Assembly: GCA_026392465.1 (NCBI GenBank) | Contig: JAPLCA010000015.1 | Coordinates: 62,001 to 126,000, forward strand | DNA length: 64,000 bases | DNA from: Propionibacteriales bacterium | GTDB taxonomy: Bacteria > Actinomycetota > Actinomycetes > Propionibacteriales > Nocardioidaceae | Reading direction: 5' to 3' | In this document: in pieces, positions 8,286 through 51,619 of the stretch | Position numbering within the stretch: the stretch's first letter is position 1 | Layout: each line of letters begins with the position of its first letter | Notes under the pieces: generated by a model | The model's database searches: none | Told to the model about the DNA's origin: nothing | The model's input: the letters and a program-made list of their open reading frames with translations, nothing else | Translations under genes and position numbers: made by a program

Positions 8286-9899
8286 ATGCCCTTCGCGATC
8301 ACCCAGAGCTGCTGCTCCGACGCCTCGTGCGTCGAGGTGTGCCCGGTCGACTGCATCCACCCGACGCCCGGCGAGCCCGACTTCGGCCACACCGACATCC
8401 TCTACGTCGACGCGCGCGCCTGCATCGACTGCGGTGCGTGCGCCGACGCCTGTCCTGCCTCGGCGATCAAGCCGATCGAGATCCTCCGCGGTGGCGAGGA
8501 GGTGTTCGTCGAGCTGAACGCCGCGTACTACGCCGAGCGTCCCGACCGGGCCGTCGCGAAGGAGCAGACGCACGCGCGGGTGCGTCCTGGCGTGCCCACG
8601 GGCCTGCGCGTGGCCGTCGTCGGCACGGGCCCGGCGGCCACCTACGCCGCGCGTGAGATCCTCGCCGCGACCGACGCGGACATCTCCTTCGTCGACCGCC
8701 TGCCGGTCCCCGGCGGCCTGCTGCGCGCGGGCGTCGCACCCGACCACGGCGAGACCAAGCGGGTCGGCGACACGTTCTCCTGGACGTACGAGCACCCCCG
8801 CACGTCGCTGTTCATGAACGTGGAGGTCGGGCGTCACGTCAGCCACGCCGAGCTGCTCGAGCACCACGACGCGGTCGTCTACGGCATCGGCGCGCCCGAG
8901 GACCGTCGGCTCGGCATCGAGGGCGAGGACCTCGACGGCGTCCACGGGTCGACCGAGACCGTCTCCTGGTACAACGGCGACCCGGAGGTCCCCGGCGACG
9001 CGATCCGCGTCGACGGGTCCCGCGTGTTCGTCGTCGGCAACGGCAACGTCGCACTCGACGTCGCCCGCATCCTGCTGAGCGACCCGGACCGGCTCGCCGG
9101 CACCGAGATCGCCGACCACGCCCTCGAGGCGATCCGCCGGGGCGACGTGCGCGAGGTCGTGCTCCTCGGTCGTCGTGGGCCGGAGGAGGCGGCCTTCACG
9201 CGACCCGAGCTGCTCACCCTCCCCGACGGCATCGAGCTCGTGGTCGAGGAGGACGCCGCCACGGCTGCCACGCTCGACGCCGCAGCACCCGGTTCCAAGG
9301 CGGCGCTGCTCGCCCACCGTCGCCGGGTGCGCAGCGACTGGTCGAGCGACCCCGAGCCCGGACGTCGGCTCGTGCTCGCCTTCGGTCGACGCGTCGTCGC
9401 GGCGCACGGCGACGGGACCCTCGCCTCGGTCACGGTCGCTGGACCCGACGGCGACGTCGAGGCACCCACCCGTCTGCTCGTCAGCTCCATCGGTCGACGT
9501 GGGCGCGCGGTGCCGGGCCTGCCGTTCGACGCCGACCGCGGCATCATCCCGAACGCGGACGGTCGCGTCGTCGACCCGGCGACGGGTGATGCCGTCCGCG
9601 GGGCCTACGTCGTCGGCTGGGCCAAGCGTGGGTCGACGGGCGGCATCGGCGCGAACCGCATCTGTGCCGGGGAGACGGTCACGACCCTGCTCGCCGACGC
9701 CGCGGAGGGTCGGCTCGCGAGCCCTGCGCGGTCGGGTCGTGCCTTCGCGCGTCTGCTGCGCAAGCGCCAGCCCGACCTCGTGCAGGCGCCCGGGGTGCGC
9801 GCCATCGAGCGTCACGAGGTCGACGCCGGCCGTGCGTCCGGGCGCCCGAGGGTCAAGCTGGTGACGGTCGAGGAGCTCCTGGCCGCGGGACGTCGCTGA
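8286..9899 (+). CDS. fprB: Ferredoxin - ferredoxin/adrenodoxin-NADP reductase fusion (FprB type)
   Basis: A 537-aa redox protein. Residues 1-65 form a bacterial 7Fe/8Fe ferredoxin with cysteine clusters CSDASCVEVCPVDC and CIDCGACADACP. Residues 95 onward form an adrenodoxin-reductase-like FAD/NADPH domain with VAVVGTGPAATYAA, LPVPGGLLRAGVAPDH, VVGNGNVALDVARIL and GWAKRGSTGGIGANR. This is the FprB architecture of mycobacteria. It would pass electrons from NADPH to its own or a partner iron-sulfur centre, most simply to the adjacent AurF-like oxygenase (7-bp spacing). Its last 47 bp overlap the convergent SRPBCC gene. Confidence 0.9.
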   Translation: MPFAITQSCCSDASCVEVCPVDCIHPTPGEPDFGHTDILYVDARACIDCGACADACPASAIKPIEILRGGEEVFVELNAAYYAERPDRAVAKEQTHARVRPGVPTGLRVAVVGTGPAATYAAREILAATDADISFVDRLPVPGGLLRAGVAPDHGETKRVGDTFSWTYEHPRTSLFMNVEVGRHVSHAELLEHHDAVVYGIGAPEDRRLGIEGEDLDGVHGSTETVSWYNGDPEVPGDAIRVDGSRVFVVGNGNVALDVARILLSDPDRLAGTEIADHALEAIRRGDVREVVLLGRRGPEEAAFTRPELLTLPDGIELVVEEDAATAATLDAAAPGSKAALLAHRRRVRSDWSSDPEPGRRLVLAFGRRVVAAHGDGTLASVTVAGPDGDVEAPTRLLVSSIGRRGRAVPGLPFDADRGIIPNADGRVVDPATGDAVRGAYVVGWAKRGSTGGIGANRICAGETVTTLLADAAEGRLASPARSGRAFARLLRKRQPDLVQAPGVRAIERHEVDAGRASGRPRVKLVTVEELLAAGRR

Positions 9900-10356
9900 G
9901 TCGGCCGACGGCCGTCTCGAGGCGGTCGAGGGTCTTCTCGAGCGCCGACGTGGGGACGGCGGGGAAGCCGCCGACCCTCCGGTGGATCGCGGGGTCGTCG
10001 ACGTCGGACCAGTCGTAGGTGAGCGACACCAGGGTCCCCCCGGCCGTCGCGGAGACGTCCCACCTCCACTCCCAGCCCGGTGGGACGCCGTCGACCGGAC
10101 CGGTGCGCCACGCCACCTCGGCGTCGTGCCGGAAGCGGGTGACGACGTTGTCCGTGCGGTAGTCGCCGGCGCGCGGGTGGTGCACGTGCATGCGGAACAC
10201 CTGGCCGACGGCGGTGACCGGCACGGCTCCGTCGTCGGCGCGCACCATGTCCGACCCGTCGATCTCCGCGTGACGCCGCGGGTCGGCGAGCAGGGCGAAC
10301 ACGACCGAGGGCGTGGCGACGATCTCGCGCGAGACGACGACGCTGGTGCGGTCCAC
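9853..10356 (-). CDS. SRPBCC family protein
   Basis: A 167-aa START/polyketide-cyclase-like protein with the common SRPBCC pattern: opening strand SREIVATPSVVFALLADPRRH, a middle VFRMHVHH, and an antiparallel sheet ending GTLVSLTYDWSD, then a C-terminal helix (LEKTLDRLETAV) that closes the hydrophobic pocket. Such proteins bind lipids or small hydrophobic ligands. The actual ligand cannot be told. GTG start at 10356, 6 nt after CACCAT. Its 3' end runs 47 bp into the end of the convergent reductase gene, so the two transcripts must overlap. A second SRPBCC gene lies at 48058-48510. Confidence 0.82.
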   Translation of the reverse strand: MDRTSVVVSREIVATPSVVFALLADPRRHAEIDGSDMVRADDGAVPVTAVGQVFRMHVHHPRAGDYRTDNVVTRFRHDAEVAWRTGPVDGVPPGWEWRWDVSATAGGTLVSLTYDWSDVDDPAIHRRVGGFPAVPTSALEKTLDRLETAVGRLSDVPRPGAPRPSPA

Positions 10357-10462
10357 GTCCTCATGGTGCGCGCCGCGGCCACCGCTGTCGAGCGTCGAGG
10401 CCTGACGGGGTGGTCCACCTCACGCGGGAGACCGGACCATCCCCTGCCGAGGTAAGGCTGGC

Positions 10463-10481
10463 CTAGGTTAGGCTCCCCTGC
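10463..10481 (+). promoter_or_regulatory. DtxR/IdeR-like iron box overlapping a leaderless promoter
   Basis: CTAGGTTAGGCTCCCCTGC matches 14 of 19 positions of the DtxR/IdeR consensus, with the left half (TAGGTTAGGCT) intact. TAGGCT at 10469-10474 also serves as a -10, 7 nt before the ATG at 10482, so an iron-loaded repressor would cover the -10 and the transcription start. It predicts iron-repressed expression of the four-gene operon. Confidence 0.75.
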
Positions 10482-11480
10482 ATGACCCGACGTACGTTCA
10501 CGCCCCGACGCCTCGCCGCAGCGGTCGCCGTGGCCCTCGCCCTCCCCCTCGCCGCCTGCGGCTCGTCCTCCGACGACGCCTCGTCCGACCAGGCCTGGAC
10601 CTACACCGACGACCTCGGCACCAAGCTCGAGCTCGACAAGGCGCCCCAGCGGATCGTCGCGCAGTCCTCGGTCGCGGCGGCGCTCACCGACCTCGGCCTC
10701 GGCGACAAGATCGTGGGCGTCTTCGGTCCGGTGAAGAACGCCGACGGCGACGTCGACAGCCAGGCTGCCGGCCTCGACGTCGACGCGGTCGAGGACGTGA
10801 CCGGCGACGGCGAGTACGGCGACATCGACCTCGAGAAGATGGCCGGTCTCAAGCCCGACCTGGTCGTGACCAGCTCCTACGTCGAGCCCGACCTCTGGTA
10901 CATCAACAAGGACGCGCAGACGAAGCTCGAGAAGCAGTACCAGACGCTCGTCATCAGCTTCGACGGCAAGACCCTGCCGCAGATCATCGAGTCGACCGAG
11001 AAGGCCGCGAAGGCGCTCGGCGCGTCCGACGACGCCGGCGACAAGGGCCAGGAGGCGTTCGACGCCGCCAAGCAGCGGCTGACCGACGTCGCCGAGGGTG
11101 CGAAGCCCTCCATCCTCGCCGTGTCCTACTCGCCGGACCTGTTCTACGTCTCCAACCCCGATGTCAGCCCCGACCTGAAGTACTACCGCGACGAGATCGG
11201 CCTCGACATCATCACGCCGAAGAACCCCGACGAGGGCGGCTACTTCGAGTCGCTCAGCTGGGAGAAGGCCGACACCTACGACGCGGACGTCGCCTACTGG
11301 GACGACCGCATCGGCAGCGCCGGTCTCGCCGCGCTGAAGAAGGAGCCGGTCTGGGGCAAGACCACGGCCGCCAAGAACGACGCCTACATCCCGTGGACGT
11401 CCGTGGCGCCGCCGTCGGCCCAGGCCTACGCCGACATCTTCGACCGGTTCGCGGACGGCCTCGAGAAGTACACGCGATGA
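10482..11480 (+). CDS. Iron-siderophore-type ABC substrate-binding lipoprotein 1
   Basis: First of three tandem paralogues, 332 aa. A signal peptide with twin Arg and lipobox LAAC (residues 24-27) marks it as a lipoprotein, anchored outside the membrane. The mature part is a class III periplasmic-binding protein (TroA/FhuD-like): it opens AWTYTDDLGTKLELDKAPQR, has APQRIVAQSSVAAALTDLGL where ligand-binding proteins have their first beta-alpha unit, and the long linking helix SWEKADTYDADVAYW. The family usually binds Fe(III)-siderophores or haem. The iron box upstream and the flavoprotein downstream support siderophore uptake. Its stop overlaps the next start (ATGA). Confidence 0.85.
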   Translation: MTRRTFTPRRLAAAVAVALALPLAACGSSSDDASSDQAWTYTDDLGTKLELDKAPQRIVAQSSVAAALTDLGLGDKIVGVFGPVKNADGDVDSQAAGLDVDAVEDVTGDGEYGDIDLEKMAGLKPDLVVTSSYVEPDLWYINKDAQTKLEKQYQTLVISFDGKTLPQIIESTEKAAKALGASDDAGDKGQEAFDAAKQRLTDVAEGAKPSILAVSYSPDLFYVSNPDVSPDLKYYRDEIGLDIITPKNPDEGGYFESLSWEKADTYDADVAYWDDRIGSAGLAALKKEPVWGKTTAAKNDAYIPWTSVAPPSAQAYADIFDRFADGLEKYTR

Positions 11481-14326: not shown

Positions 14327-15847
<1,521 letters not shown>

Positions 15848-30484: not shown

Positions 30485-32043
<1,559 letters not shown>

Positions 32044-32044
32044 T

Positions 32045-32113
32045 CCCCACGATTCGGTACGTCATCGCCCGTTCTCGTCACCAGAACGGGCGATGACGTA
32101 CCGAAACGTGGGG
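32045..32113. terminator. 31-bp stem-loop between guaA and nhaA
   Basis: Arms at about 32045-32075 and 32083-32113 pair over 31 bp with one mismatch (CCCCACG...GTTCT), leaving a loop of 7 nt. It lies between convergent stops and should stop transcription in both directions. Its length exceeds a normal terminator and its core GGTACGTCATCGCCCG looks like a repeat unit. Confidence 0.7.
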
Positions 32114-32124
32114 AGGGAGTGGGC

Positions 32125-33342
32125 TCAGGGGCGGTAGGCGCGGTTGCGGGAGCGCAGCACCACCACGGCCAACAGCGCCGACGTGAGGGAGCCGACGAGC
32201 ACGCCGACCTTCACGTGCTCGTCGGCCTCGCTGCCCGGCCCGAACGCAAGCTCGCCGACCAGCAGCGCCACCGTGAAGCCGATGCCGGCGAGCAGGCCGA
32301 CGCCGAGCAGGTCGGTCCAGGTCAGGTCGTCGTCGAGCTCGGCGCGCGTGAACCGCGCCATCAGCCAGGTCGAGGCGAGCACGCCGACCGGCTTGCCGAC
32401 CACCAACCCCGCGACGATACCCAGGGTCACCGGGTCGCGCAGGGCCTCCACGAACCCCGACGCCCCCTCGACGGCCACGCCGGCGGAGAAGAACGCGAAG
32501 ACGGGGACGGCGAACAGCGACGACACGGGGCGCACCCGGTGCTCGAGGTGCTCGGCCAGGCCCGGACCCTGCTGCCCGTCGCGGCGCAGCACCGGCACCG
32601 TGAACCCGAGCAGGACGCCGGCGACCGTCGCGTGCACGCCGGACTCGTGCACGCAGGCCCAGGCGACGGCCGCGAGCGGGAGGAGGAGCCACGGCGAGCG
32701 GATGCGGCGCTGGACGAGCAGCCCGAACAAGCCGATCGGGACGAGCGCGGCCAGCAGCCAGAGCACGTCGAGGTCGGCCGTGTAGAACAGCGCGATGATC
32801 GTGATGGCCAGCAGGTCGTCGACGATCGCCAGCGTGAGCAGGAAGAGTCGCAGCGCGGTCGGCAGGAACGAGCCGACGACCGCCAGCACCGCCACGGCGA
32901 AGGCGATGTCGGTCGCCGACGGGATCGCCCAGCCGATCAGGCGTCCCTCGGGGTGCAGCCCGTTGACCAGCAGGTAGATGCCGGCGGGGACGGCCATGCC
33001 GCCGACGGCCGCGACGATCGGCACCGCGGCGCGCGAGGGGTCGCGCAGGTCGCCGGCGACGAGCTCGCGCTTGAGCTCCAGGCCGACGACGAAGAAGAAG
33101 ACGGCGAGCAGACCGTCGGCCGCCCACGTGCCGAGCGAGAGGTCGAGGTGCAGCGCGGACGGTCCGACGACCGTGTCGCGCAGCTGCCCGTAGGCGTCGG
33201 TGGTGTTCGCGGCGACCAGGGCGAGGAGGGCCGCGACGACGAGCAGCGCGCCGCCGAACGTCTCGGCACGGACGAGCTCGCCGATGCGCTGGGTCTCGGA
33301 CCAGGAGCCGCGGGTCAGCAGGCGGCGACGGGGGGTGCTCAC
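32125..33342 (-). CDS. nhaA: Na+/H+ antiporter NhaA
   Basis: Exports Na+ in exchange for protons; 405 aa with about twelve membrane helices. Signatures are [18 protein letters not shown] near residue 85, [18 protein letters not shown] near 140 and the essential Asp pair in [12 protein letters not shown] near 170, matching Asp163-Asp164 of E. coli NhaA. A cytoplasmic tail of charged residues (SEADEH) precedes the last helix. The GTG start at 33342 is chosen over a longer reading because it has GGAGG upstream and leaves a family-like N-terminus ([12 protein letters not shown]). Convergent to guaA and divergent from the GGT gene. Confidence 0.93.
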
Positions 33343-35005: not shown

Positions 35006-35836
35006 ATGAACCTCGTCGGCCTCGCCACCCTGCCCCTGCGCGTGACGATCTCGGCCACCCGCACGACCCTGGCCCTGGGCCAGCTGGCGTCGCCGGACGG
35101 CCCGATCCTGCGCGAGGGCGGGTACGGCACGCGGATCGCGGTGCTGATCGGCGAGGACGGCCTGCTGGAGCAGCTGGGCCGGCTGCTCGCCGACGACCGC
35201 GGCATCGTCGCGCTCGGCAACCTGGTCGCCGACATCACGGCCGAGGACCGGCCGATCGGCAAGGCGCTGCAGCGTGACGGTCTCGTCGACCGGATGGCCT
35301 CGGAGGAGGGCCCCTTCGTGCGGCTGCTGGAGGCCGGCGGCCCGCTCGACCGCGCGCTGGCGGAGGACGGGCCGCTCTACCGCTTCCTCGCTCCGGGCGG
35401 GTCGCTCGATCGGCTGCTCGCACCCGACGGACCGCTGGAGCGGCTGACCGCGCCCGACGGCCCGATCGAGCGGATGCTCGCGCCCGGTGGCCCGCTCGAG
35501 CGGCTCCTGGAGAACGACGGCACGCTCGAGAACGTCCTGCGTCCCGGCGGCCTGCTGGAGCAGCTGCTGGAGGAGGACGGTGTCCTCGAGAACCTGCTGC
35601 GGCCCGGTGGGACCCTGGAGCAGCTGGTGGCGCTCGGGTCGACGATCGACGCGATCGTCCCGCGGCTGGAGGCGCTGGGCAACGCGATCCCGAGCCTCAA
35701 CCAGGCGGTGTCGGTGCTGAGCGGTGCCGTCGAGCCGCTCGGCACGCTCGCCCAGCGTCTGCCCGGCGGTCGCCGTCGGGTGCTGTCCTCCGGTCCGTCG
35801 GGGTCGACCCCCACGAACGAGCTGTACGGCGAGTGA
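35006..35836 (+). CDS. Decapeptide-repeat protein of unknown function
   Basis: 276 aa with no recognised enzyme domain. An N-terminal part (1-78, MNLVGLATLPLRVTISATR start) is followed by thirteen consecutive 10-residue repeats at residues 79-208 (35240-35629) with consensus x-x-D/G-G-x-L-D/E-R-L-L, for example APGGPLERLL, APDGPLERLT, RPGGLLEQLL. The repeats have no gaps. The tail (209-276) has a helical region and a Ser/Pro/Thr-rich end. No signal peptide or long membrane segment. The period of ten could form a solenoid or helical stack. It ends overlapping the next start (GTGA), so it is coupled to a META protein. Function unknown. Confidence 0.75.
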   Translation: MNLVGLATLPLRVTISATRTTLALGQLASPDGPILREGGYGTRIAVLIGEDGLLEQLGRLLADDRGIVALGNLVADITAEDRPIGKALQRDGLVDRMASEEGPFVRLLEAGGPLDRALAEDGPLYRFLAPGGSLDRLLAPDGPLERLTAPDGPIERMLAPGGPLERLLENDGTLENVLRPGGLLEQLLEEDGVLENLLRPGGTLEQLVALGSTIDAIVPRLEALGNAIPSLNQAVSVLSGAVEPLGTLAQRLPGGRRRVLSSGPSGSTPTNELYGE

Positions 35837-48563: not shown

Positions 48564-49247
48564 TCAGCCGAGCACGAACGCGAGCCAGAACCCGAGCGCG
48601 GTGGACAGCCCGATCCACCAGCCGCCGTCGCGGTAGGCCTCGGGCAGGAGCGTGTCGGCGAGGACGGCCAGGGTCGCACCGCCGGCGACGGCCTGGGCGA
48701 CGGCGATCGCCGCGGGGGAGACGACGTCGCCGCCGGCGTGCGCGGCGACCGTGACGAGGGTCAGCAGGACGCCGACGCCGGCCCACAGCAGCAGTCCGCG
48801 TCGCGGACCGAGCGCAGGATCCTGGCGCAGCGAGGCGGCGCTGGCGATCGCCTCGGGGGTGTTGCCGACGGCGATCGCGACCAGCAGCGCGAGCCCGCCC
48901 TCCTGCAGGGACACCCCGAGCGCGGTGTTCTCCGGCACCCCGTCGAGGAACGCACCCAGCAGCAGCCCGAGCCCGACCGCCGACGTGCCGAGCCGGGTGT
49001 CGAGCAGGTGGCTGAGCACGACGTACGTCGCCGCGCCACCGATCAGCCCGAGCCCCGCGAGCCCCGCCCCCACCTCCGTGAACGCCGGCCCGAACAGCTC
49101 CTCCGACGCCGCCGCGATCATCGTTCCCGCCCCGAACGCCATCAGCGCCGCGAGCACCGGCTTCGGGATCCGCCACCGCAGCCCCACGGCCGCGCCCCCC
49201 ACGAGCGGCACGGCCGTCGCGGCACCGTAGAGAGCAGCGGTGAGCAC
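48564..49247 (-). CDS. ZIP family metal transporter
   Basis: 227 aa with about eight membrane helices. The ZIP metal-site helices are seen as MAFGAGTMIAAASEELFGPA (residues 36-55) and LGAFLDGVPENTALGVSL (near residue 98), where the usual H-N-x-x-E is replaced by D-G-V-P-E-N, and AIAVGNTPEAIASAASL (near 123) where H-x-x-P-E is N-T-P-E. The two family histidines are therefore missing, so the metal or even the function may differ from zinc import. GTG start at 49247, 6 nt after TAGCGT (leaderless). Divergent from purF across the long element. Confidence 0.8.
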   Translation of the reverse strand: MLTAALYGAATAVPLVGGAAVGLRWRIPKPVLAALMAFGAGTMIAAASEELFGPAFTEVGAGLAGLGLIGGAATYVVLSHLLDTRLGTSAVGLGLLLGAFLDGVPENTALGVSLQEGGLALLVAIAVGNTPEAIASAASLRQDPALGPRRGLLLWAGVGVLLTLVTVAAHAGGDVVSPAAIAVAQAVAGGATLAVLADTLLPEAYRDGGWWIGLSTALGFWLAFVLG

Positions 49248-49289: not shown

Positions 49290-50050
49290 AGTCTTGCCGC
49301 TGCGCCGCCTGCGGGTGTCGCGGTCGTGCTGGTGCGCGGGCTGCGGTGGTCCCGTCCTTGCTGGTGCGCTGCCGCAGGAGGTCTGCGCTTGCTGGTGCGC
49401 TGCCTCGGCTGGCGCTGGGGGTGGTCTCCGAAAGGTCCTCGACCGGCAGCGGGTCCGGGGGTGGCTTCGGGTCTCGGGGTCTAGCTGGGCCCGTGGGTGA
49501 CGCACGATTCTTCCTTTGCGCGTGATGGGGCCAAGGTTCTGCGTTCTCGTGTTCGGGCGGTGGATCTGCCACCTTCTGGGGGCTGTTCAGGTGGCAGATC
49601 CACCGCCGGTGGGGGCGAGCGCGGAAGGATTCTTCCTTCTCGTGGACCGTTCCACGAGAAGGAAGAATCCTTCGTCTCCCCAACGCAAACGGCACCCAAG
49701 ATTCTGCATTCACGAGAGTCAGGTCGAACGCTTCTGCGTTTGCTACGGGAACCCGTAGCAAACGCAGCATCCTTGGCCATTCCGCACGCGAACGCAGAAT
49801 CTTGCGTCCACCCACAGCGCGAGCCACAGCCCGAGACCCGAAGCCGGCCGCCGCCCATCTGCCCGGTCGAGGCCCTTTCGGAGACCAGACACAGCGAAGG
49901 CCGAGGCAGCGCACCAGCACGACGAGACCCCCTGCGGCAGCGCACCAGCAAGCACGGACCCCCGCAGGCCGCGCAGCAGCAAGCCGAGACCGACCTCAGG
50001 CAGCGCAGCAGCAGGACCAGACCCCCGCAGCCAGCGCACCCGCAGGACGC
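49290..50050. repeat. Large nested inverted-repeat element with 31-bp tandem repeats
   Basis: Fills most of the 878-bp gene-free gap between the ZIP gene and purF. The left part (49290-49550) and the reverse complement of the right part (about 49735-50050) are homologous along their length, e.g. GGTCTCCGAAAGG with CCTTTCGGAGACC. In the left arm GCTGGTGCGC recurs at 49328, 49360 and 49391; in the right arm its complement recurs at 49909, 49940, 49971, 50003 and 50034: a 31-32-bp tandem repeat. The centre holds three hairpins: 49557-49606 (18-bp perfect arms), 49625-49672 (22-bp perfect arms, 4-nt loop), 49734-49767 (16-bp perfect arms). No protein gene is credible here; reading frames in it are repeat shadows. 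Confidence 0.8.
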
Positions 50051-50113
50051 ACCCCCCGCCCACGTCACGCCCACGTCATGCCCAGGGCGGTCCCGGGGGC
50101 GGGATCGGGCCCC

Positions 50114-50126
50114 TACACTGGTGCAG
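50114..50126 (+). promoter_or_regulatory. Leaderless promoter of purF
   Basis: TACACT at 50114-50119, then 6 nt to the purF GTG. It lies just outside the right arm of the large inverted-repeat element. Confidence 0.55.
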
Positions 50127-51619
50127 TGGCACGCGGAGACGGTCGGCTGACGCACGACATCGATCCTCAGGACGTCGGACCCCAGGACGCCTGTGGCGTG
50201 TTCGGGGTGTGGGCTCCCGGTGAGGAGGTCGCGAAGCTCAGCTACTTCGGTCTCTACGCCCTGCAGCACCGGGGCCAGGAGTCGGCGGGCATCGCGGTGA
50301 GCAACGGCAAGCAGATCCTCGTCTACAAGGACATGGGGCTCGTGTCCCAGGTCTTCGACGAGTCGACGCTGGAGTCGCTGGTCGGCTCGGTCGCGATCGG
50401 TCACTCCCGCTACAGCACCACGGGCGCGAGCGTGTGGCAGAACGCGCAGCCGACGTTCCGGCCCACCGCGCAGGGCTCCGTCGCTCTCGCGCACAACGGC
50501 AACCTGACGAACACCGCCGACCTCGTCACGATGCTGCAGGAGCGGACGGCCGAGAACGGGCCCGGACGGCGCGGCAAGGGCGAGACCGCCACCACCGACA
50601 CGTCGGTCATGGCGAGCCTGCTGGCCGCCTACCCCGACCGGTCGGTCGAGGAGGCCGCGATCGAGGTGCTCCCGAAGCTGCGCGGCGCCTTCTCGCTCGT
50701 CTTCATGGACGAGCACACCCTCTACGCCGCGCGCGACCCGCAGGGCATCCGCCCGCTCGTGCTCGGCCGTCTGGAGCGAGGCTGGGTCGTCGCCAGCGAG
50801 ACCGCCGCGCTCGACATCGTCGGCGCCTCCTTCATCCGCGAGATCGAGCCCGGCGAGTTCATCGCCATCGACGAGAACGGGCTGCGCACCGAGCGGTTCT
50901 CGCCCGCCGAGCCCAAGGGCTGCATCTTCGAGTACGTCTACCTCGCCCGGCCCGACACCACGATCTCCGACCAGCGCGTCTTCACGGTGCGGGCGGAGAT
51001 CGGCCGACGTCTGGCGCGCGAGCACCCGGTCGACGCCGACCTGGTCATCCCCGTGCCGGAGTCGGGCACGCCGGCCGCCATCGGCTACGCCGAGGAGAGC
51101 GGCATCCCGTTCGGCCACGGCCTGGTCAAGAACTCCTACGTGGGCCGCACGTTCATCCAGCCCTCGCAGACCATCCGCCAGCTCGGCATCCGGCTCAAGC
51201 TCAACCCGCTGCGCGACGTCATCGCCGGCAAGCGGCTCGTCGTCGTCGACGACTCGATCGTGCGCGGCAACACGCAGCGCGCGCTGGTGCGGATGCTGCG
51301 CGAGTCGGGTGCGGCGGAGGTGCACGTGCGCATCTCGAGCCCCCCGGTCAAGTGGCCGTGCTTCTACGGCATCGACTTCGCGTCGCGTGCCGAGCTCATC
51401 GCCAACGGCATCAGCGTGGAGGAGATCTGCCGCTCGATCGACGCCGACTCCCTCGCCTACGTCGAGCTCGACGAGCTCGTCGAGGCCACGAACGTGCCCA
51501 AGGAGAAGCTCTGCCGCGCCTGCTTCGACGGCATCTACCCGGTCCCGCTGCCGGAGGACGACCTGATCGGCAAGCACCTGCTCGAGACCGACGCGAAGCC
51601 CCTGAAGGTGATCCAGTGA
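50126..51619 (+). CDS. purF: Amidophosphoribosyltransferase
   Basis: Commits PRPP and glutamine to purine synthesis as phosphoribosylamine. 497 aa with an Ntn-type glutaminase domain: the propeptide before DACGVFGVWAPGEE is removed so that Cys (residue 17) becomes the N-terminal nucleophile. HRGQESAG, GHSRYSTTGAS and AHNGNLTNTADL follow. The phosphoribosyltransferase domain has the PRPP loop RLVVVDDSIVRGNTQRAL near residue 370. Cysteines in GCIFEYVYLARPD, CRACFDGIYP and WPCFYGIDF are placed like those that hold the [4Fe-4S] cluster of the Bacillus type. Coupled to purM by GTGA. Confidence 0.97.
   Translation: MARGDGRLTHDIDPQDVGPQDACGVFGVWAPGEEVAKLSYFGLYALQHRGQESAGIAVSNGKQILVYKDMGLVSQVFDESTLESLVGSVAIGHSRYSTTGASVWQNAQPTFRPTAQGSVALAHNGNLTNTADLVTMLQERTAENGPGRRGKGETATTDTSVMASLLAAYPDRSVEEAAIEVLPKLRGAFSLVFMDEHTLYAARDPQGIRPLVLGRLERGWVVASETAALDIVGASFIREIEPGEFIAIDENGLRTERFSPAEPKGCIFEYVYLARPDTTISDQRVFTVRAEIGRRLAREHPVDADLVIPVPESGTPAAIGYAEESGIPFGHGLVKNSYVGRTFIQPSQTIRQLGIRLKLNPLRDVIAGKRLVVVDDSIVRGNTQRALVRMLRESGAAEVHVRISSPPVKWPCFYGIDFASRAELIANGISVEEICRSIDADSLAYVELDELVEATNVPKEKLCRACFDGIYPVPLPEDDLIGKHLLETDAKPLKVIQ

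Follow-up and report, generated by a model that had tools for sequence, protein, structure and literature searches.

Bacterial extragenic repeats of the REP, REPIN and BIME types are described as many-copy, inverted pairs of short imperfect palindromes (PMC3116915, PMC3733652), with a GTAG or CGTC tag adjoining the palindrome in REPs and REPINs (PMC3733652). Eukaryotic foldback elements such as Tetris of Drosophila virilis have, according to PMC4079207, long inverted arms, a variable number of tandem repeats and a non-coding middle, and they occur at filled and empty sites. For repeated prokaryotic genes such as rRNA operons, paralogs that are more alike than orthologs have been ascribed to gene conversion (PMC6002687, PMC8022953). 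Template switching between the arms of an inverted repeat, reported from yeast within one locus, makes the arms alike and inverts spacers without selection (PMC8604942). The usual accounts of bacterial repeat families are transposition or simple descent.

The family described here departs from both, in that its sites are inherited and its sequence is apparently pooled. It came to light as a nested palindrome in a 64,000-nt stretch of contig JAPLCA010000015.1 (positions 62,001 to 126,000), hereafter the window. In architecture it appears closest to foldback elements, and in kind to BIME/REPIN-like repeats. Like the former, it has long inverted arms, tandem repeats in variable number, a non-coding middle, and sites filled in one species and empty in another. 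However, its repeat unit is 31/32 bp instead of the ~220 bp of Tetris, its palindromes are bacterial and much smaller, no clear target-site duplication was seen by eye at four sites, no related transposase has come to light, and copies appear to recombine. Like REPs, REPINs and BIMEs, it is extragenic, many-copy and inverted, but its palindromes are far longer and nested, with arms of tandem repeats, no RAYT match in the genus, and sequence shuffled between copies. It differs from rRNA-type concerted evolution in being non-coding and dispersed, with ~50 copies in which the association between variants is gone within ~100 bp, and from template switching in yeast in that exchange is mainly between loci. 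Among the literature matches listed, a set mostly outside subscription papers and preprints, we found no earlier description of this palindrome family.

The element lies between two divergent genes, from ~49291 to ~50056 of the window, and nearly fills the gap. Inverted 31/32-bp arrays lie outermost; inward of them come a conserved 20-bp arm motif on either side, then the inner arms, and finally three central hairpins (Table 1). Its main inverted arms (49352-49446 and 49863-49957) are 95 nt long and 86% complementary, and there are further arm pairs. The best inverted-repeat score in an 871-bp piece was 62.5; 200 dinucleotide shuffles averaged 10.5 and never exceeded 16. Folded as single-stranded DNA, the element reached -325.7 kcal/mol, against -182.9 (sd 7.1) for 20 shuffles (z -20). 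A sequence-only reading of the window had placed a dyad at 49290-50050 with outer halves that are diverged reverse complements of each other, and both descriptions hold. It had counted three repeat units on the left and five on the right; left units start at 49327, 49359 and 49390, spaced 31-32 bp, with a degenerate one at 49295, and the right array comprises 4.9 copies of 31 bp (49904-50056). The three perfect central stems are also there, slightly longer than the 18, 22 and 16 bp first given, at 19, 23 and 16 bp. A protein gene can be set aside, as that reading had it: open reading frames cross the element, yet the trained gene finder calls none over any of the 66 copies described below. Elsewhere in the window, the second-best inverted repeat scored 30 (31601-32871), and a 30/60-bp tandem array occupies 35309-35630, with 7.4 copies of 30 bp in 35309-35530.

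Table 1. Features of the window element and its flanks, and insertions in copies of the family in genome G005.
Feature	Position	Strand	Description
Left outer arm	49291-49412		31-32-bp repeat array, type A, inverted relative to right arm
Arm motif F, TCTCCGAAAGGTCCTCGACC	49425-49444	+	One of the family's best-conserved parts
Left inner arm	49445-49499		75% complementary to 49809-49863
Hairpin A	49556-49607		19-bp stem 49556-49574/49589-49607, 14-nt loop
Hairpin B	49624-49673		23-bp perfect stem 49624-49646/49651-49673, 4-nt loop
Hairpin C	49734-49767		16-bp perfect stem 49734-49749/49752-49767, 2 nt between
Right inner arm	49809-49863		Pairs with left inner arm
Arm motif R	49865-49884	-	Motif F on the opposite strand
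Right outer arm	49885-50056		Type A array of about five 31-bp units, beginning at 49904
Putative ZIP-like flanking gene	48564-49247	-	Named by eye and in the sequence-only reading; start codon adjoins element
Putative purF flanking gene	50126-51619	+	Named by eye and in the sequence-only reading; start read as GTG at 50126
IS30-type transposase genes (named by eye), G005	L079 ~9525-10553; L108 ~9055-10083; L113 ~9694-10722		

The window element is one of a large dispersed family with ~50-60 copies per genome. The genome of the window (G000) is an Aeromicrobium, assembled as a 39-contig draft. It contains 105 matches to the arm motif TCTCCGAAAGGNCCTCGACC at up to 3 mismatches and none to the same pattern read backwards, and the matches often form inward-facing pairs ~400-460 bp apart. 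When the element was compared with its own genome by blastn, many places were hit, the best 39 besides itself being 77-88% identical. At up to 2 mismatches there were 98 motif matches in G000, 94 in G005, 79 in G019 and 81 in G029, as against three at most (0-3) in any other of the remaining 45 genus genomes, so that homologues at high copy number are present in 4 of 49 (the carriers). Among 293 sampled genomes of the order, searched at 1 mismatch, many matches occurred only in the same four, and one further genome had a single match. An exact 22-base search of a genome collection, which misses variants and may skip the record of the window itself, returned only Aeromicrobium sp. CnD17-E (13 stretches). 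Blastn against 50,697 phage and 72,556 plasmid records gave no match, and we rejected a phage or plasmid origin.

We counted a copy as full when its two arm motifs were 200-600 bp apart and it lay more than 1,500 bp from the end of a stretch. This left 34 copies in G000 and 32 in G005, out of ~60 and ~50 places. Their outer arrays come in two types of 31/32-bp unit, each found in both arms. In G000, 17 of the 78 contig ends have an arm motif no more than 450 bp away, which suggests that draft assemblies of this lineage may break at palindrome copies. G005 and G019 are single contigs. Among the matches listed for G005 there is no family copy in C1:6400-534000, with ~50 elsewhere on the chromosome, a possible positional bias.

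All 34 full copies in G000 stand at sites that are also occupied in G005. For 28 the site was identified through both flanks and for one through a single flank; the last five were found after 13 further stretches had been added. A recheck found one or more arm motifs between the flanks at 32 sites and beside a single flank at 1; it mispaired one site (G005 2181742 / C22:357528) with a secondary match, and the flanks there enclose a full G005 copy. Seven G005 counterparts show only one arm motif. These 34 copies have been fixed in place and inherited vertically since G000 and G005 split.

Empty sites exist as well. At the purF locus, eight non-carriers in which both flanking genes were matched have 50-96 bp between the matched parts (G011, 50; G069 and G016, 53; G064, 60; G004, 87; G025, 94; G033, 95; G031, 96); the remaining non-carriers matched on the purF side only, or not at all. 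Among the other carriers, G005 and G029 hold the element at this locus, and G019 has a 226-bp gap with an arm fragment. Four sites filled in G019 are empty in G000, one of these gaps being a few bases between convergent stop codons. Inspection by eye of these four sites, where the element ends lie in variable arrays, revealed no clear target-site duplication. The earlier suggestion of a non-autonomous mobile element is plausible for the past, with filled and empty sites in evidence, but turnover of sites between G000 and G005 was not seen.

Across 20 orthologous G000/G005 pairs, identity in the flanks was 0.92-0.93 up to 200 bp from the arm motif, then 0.845 at 100-200 bp and 0.79 in the 100 bp nearest the motif; the core itself was 0.80 identical. 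(The window copy is not among the 20, its G005 counterpart having one recognisable motif, and the pair G005 2181742 / C22:357528 was assigned by hand from flank coordinates.) By multiple alignment, core identity was 0.769 between orthologs, 0.758 for any between-species pair, 0.857 within G000 and 0.754 within G005. The true ortholog had a median rank of 12.5 among the 32 G005 copies and came first in only 1 of 20 cases. Paralogs are thus closer than orthologs in G000 but not in G005. Since G005 copies are no more alike than between-species pairs, the case for exchange in that genome is made by mosaicism and clustering.

A tree of 98 cores from the four species had 17 changes of species label, compared with 50.6 after shuffling. 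Cores of G000 and G019 clustered strongly and those of G005 less so. G029 cores were mixed among those of G005 (10 changes; 11 of 500 shuffles as low) and formed no separate group. In G029/G005 pairs, with flanks ~93-98% identical, the ortholog came first in 3 of 10, a rough count, since the partner was taken to be whichever copy lay closest within 4 kb and the same one fell to two G029 loci. This fits place-specific similarity that fades with time.

Linkage between parts of the core was examined in G000, G005 and G019, using copies with more than 380 aligned letters (33 of 34, 22 of 32 and 17 of 19, respectively; 15 of the last 17 in the block and r-squared tests). Pairwise distances computed from odd and even columns correlated at 0.74 in G000 and 0.87 in G005, and those from left and right halves at 0.06 and 0.49. 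Neighbouring blocks in G000 correlated at 0.62-0.74, and the correlation dropped as blocks grew in all three genomes, more weakly in G005 and G019. We put down the G019 halves value of 0.95 to outlying copies; without two copies, its thirds correlated at 0.09-0.30. The r-squared between variant columns exceeded the permuted value at 1-10 bp (0 of 1000 permutations as high in each genome) and at 11-60 bp (0, 0 and 2 of 1000), with no excess at 61-150 bp. Draft-assembly chimeras do not account for the decay in G005 and G019, each a single contig; mosaicism in G000 could be partly inflated by them. The window copy itself is perfectly identical to the copy at C2:87440 over a 110-bp tract, to either side of which the two differ.

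The copies are therefore mosaics that cluster by species. Because orthologs hardly beat random pairs and linkage fades within ~100 bp, the fixed copies apparently exchange short tracts. From these traces we infer that ectopic gene conversion or template switching is the process behind the mosaics. Exchange between the arms of one copy was not seen within the core: inner arms of G000 were 0.745 identical within a copy and 0.777 between copies, with cores unoriented in this test. Outer arms were slightly closer within a copy in G000 (0.728 vs 0.682) and no closer in G005. The type of the left and right outer arrays agreed in 27 of 31 G000 copies (15.1 expected; 0 of 2000 permutations) and in 20 of 30 G005 copies (18.2 expected). 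One of the 20 orthologous pairs had a flipped core, as template switching might produce. Of the two explanations first offered for substitutions with retained symmetry, recurrent conversion is supported, mainly between dispersed copies, in preference to point-by-point selection.

The reading we prefer, with a probability of roughly 0.6, is that these are compound palindromes of an Aeromicrobium lineage, tolerated and mostly selfish DNA that spread non-autonomously in the past and now exchanges short tracts among fixed sites. The element would have entered many gene ends in the past, probably non-autonomously, with a mobiliser since gone or not recognised. Copies would then have stayed put, passing vertically since G000 and G005 parted, and exchanged tracts of tens to somewhat more than 100 bp, presumably by ectopic gene conversion or template switching. 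Such exchange would explain why G000 and G019 each have a distinct family version, with one version common to the close pair G005/G029. A likely driver would be long hairpin-forming DNA exposed at replication in cells lacking SbcCD, of which SbcD was the part searched for. The elements would persist at gene 3' ends, with a candidate side role as two-way transcription terminators or insulators. Around fifty dispersed non-coding loci that pool sequence at a scale of tens of bases would make ectopic conversion measurable from genomes alone. They would also offer a test case for long palindromes surviving without SbcCD and for a repeat family changing in concert without moving.

A more far-reaching version is possible, and we hold it only tentatively. 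It treats the copies as a freely recombining population within one genome, in which hairpin DNA drives its own ectopic short-tract conversion in the absence of SbcCD, variants spread over fixed sites with no need of a transposase, a reverse transcriptase or renewed insertion, and the copies may serve as chromosome-wide structural sites. The SbcCD nuclease acts on DNA hairpins. SbcD (TIGR00619) was not found in the four carriers; it exceeded the cut-off in 17 of the 45 other genus genomes, and 21 of 45 had any match. SbcCD cutting is thus unlikely to start conversion, and we dropped it as the driver. Most non-carriers lack SbcD as well, which makes its absence permissive at best, a condition under which long palindromes may persist, and with four related carriers there was no significant association with carriage. 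No reverse transcriptase (RVT_1) was found in the four carriers, as against 5 of the other 45 genomes, and a retro-mechanism was rejected.

The inherited sites could also reflect a burst of transposition that spread a single master copy not long before the two species separated, followed by independent divergence with no conversion. Such a star-like burst predicts both the 34 shared sites and orthologs hardly closer than non-orthologs. However, copies from different species differ by 24%, more than the ~19% to which the two within-species values average, and copies cluster by species. Nor would a star tree yield neighbouring blocks in G000 that agree while its halves do not, or the decay of linkage in two single-contig genomes. 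We consider this account unlikely.

To a similar degree, we doubt that the family is a functional chromosome or transcription element under selection (a nucleoid-protein array, a gyrase site or a two-way terminator), with conversion as a by-product. The placement of copies speaks for it. According to a codon-usage gene finder trained on these data, none of the 66 full copies lies inside a gene, and the intergenic spans are ~510-1170 bp. Convergent gene pairs flank 15 of 34 copies in G000, an excess, and divergent pairs flank 3 of 34, the window copy being one of these rarer cases; of all 671 gene pairs in those stretches, 111 are convergent and 108 divergent. The 31/32-bp spacing is close to three turns of the DNA helix, sites are retained in two species, and some stems show more pair-restoring changes than expected (see below). 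Against selection for function, 45 of 49 genus genomes lack a high-copy family, several sites are empty in another carrier, and the core faces either way relative to neighbouring genes, with no bias by eye. In G000, moreover, 11-14% of stem cells are mismatched. The nucleoid- or replication-related role suggested by the sequence-only reading is a candidate role.

Base changes that restore pairing bear on this rival and on a structured RNA. In G000, arms and hairpins had about as many restoring double changes as their shuffles (22 vs 21.8; 20 vs 19.1), and so did the arms of G005 and G029. Such changes exceeded every shuffle in the G005 hairpins (92 vs 48.5, shuffle maximum 63) and the G019 arms (14 vs 6.7, maximum 13), so that some process preserving structure may be at work, and were within the shuffled range in the hairpins of G019 (24 vs 15.6, maximum 27) and G029 (18 vs 13.7, maximum 20). 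G-T and A-C mismatches were about equally frequent in G000 and G005 (55/62, 79/71, 115/116 and 103/131). In the arms of G019 and G029, A-C was twice as frequent as G-T (50/25 and 43/22), and an A-C on one strand equals a G-U on the other. Different copies carry stems of similar form and unlike sequence. The pattern fits any of three causes: weak selection on hairpins, hairpin-templated correction, or an opposite-strand RNA in two carriers.

Mobilisation of REPIN/BIME-type elements by a RAYT transposase is very unlikely. Its attraction is that copies are intergenic and that hairpin A alone resembles a REPIN, in which a short imperfect palindrome is present twice, in inverted orientation. Similar palindromes lacking the arms are found in other Aeromicrobium genomes, alone or a few together: G011 has them at 8 places, and they also occur in G002, G004 and G027. 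At one locus where G000 and G005 hold the full element, G004 has a duplicated 141-bp block containing them. However, no RAYT (Y1_Tnp) match was found in any of the 49 genus genomes, with a control positive in 5 of 14, and the elements are far longer than REPINs, with arms of tandem repeats. An inverted-repeat scan of 398 kb of G011, in 20 stretches of which 8 surrounded hairpin hits, gave one weak inverted repeat and no compound element; applied to control stretches, the same scan recovers the element in 9 of 9.

A structured non-coding RNA family, which the sequence-only reading had offered as one possibility, is scarcely credible: the very stable fold, the excess double changes in G005 hairpins and G019 arms and the A-C surplus in G019 and G029 arms speak for it, but the window has no Rfam match at gathering score, covariation is unsupported in the element's own genome, where double changes equal shuffles, G-T and A-C are balanced there and in G005, and copies lie in either orientation relative to genes.

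The search for an autonomous copy led to three G005 copies with a 1.5-kb distance between arms. In each, the extra length is an IS30-type insertion with the same transposase gene, of 342 aa and named by eye (Table 1), and we rejected these as autonomous copies. By eye, all three insertions sit in the hairpin region, two near hairpin C and one near hairpin B, which suggests that the IS30-type element may prefer palindrome copies as a target.

A second palindromic family was also observed, in which GGTCTCGATACG and CTACTCGACC enclose a variable self-complementary stem (for example G000:C21:65450-66119, at L073 ~14530-15300). It is often arrayed, with a period of ~155-175 bp. The two flanking sequences had 41 and 41 matches in G000 and 127 and 129 in G005, and they occur in 11 of 77 genomes of the order (3 of 12 genera). 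The stem sequence differs among copies yet remains largely palindromic.
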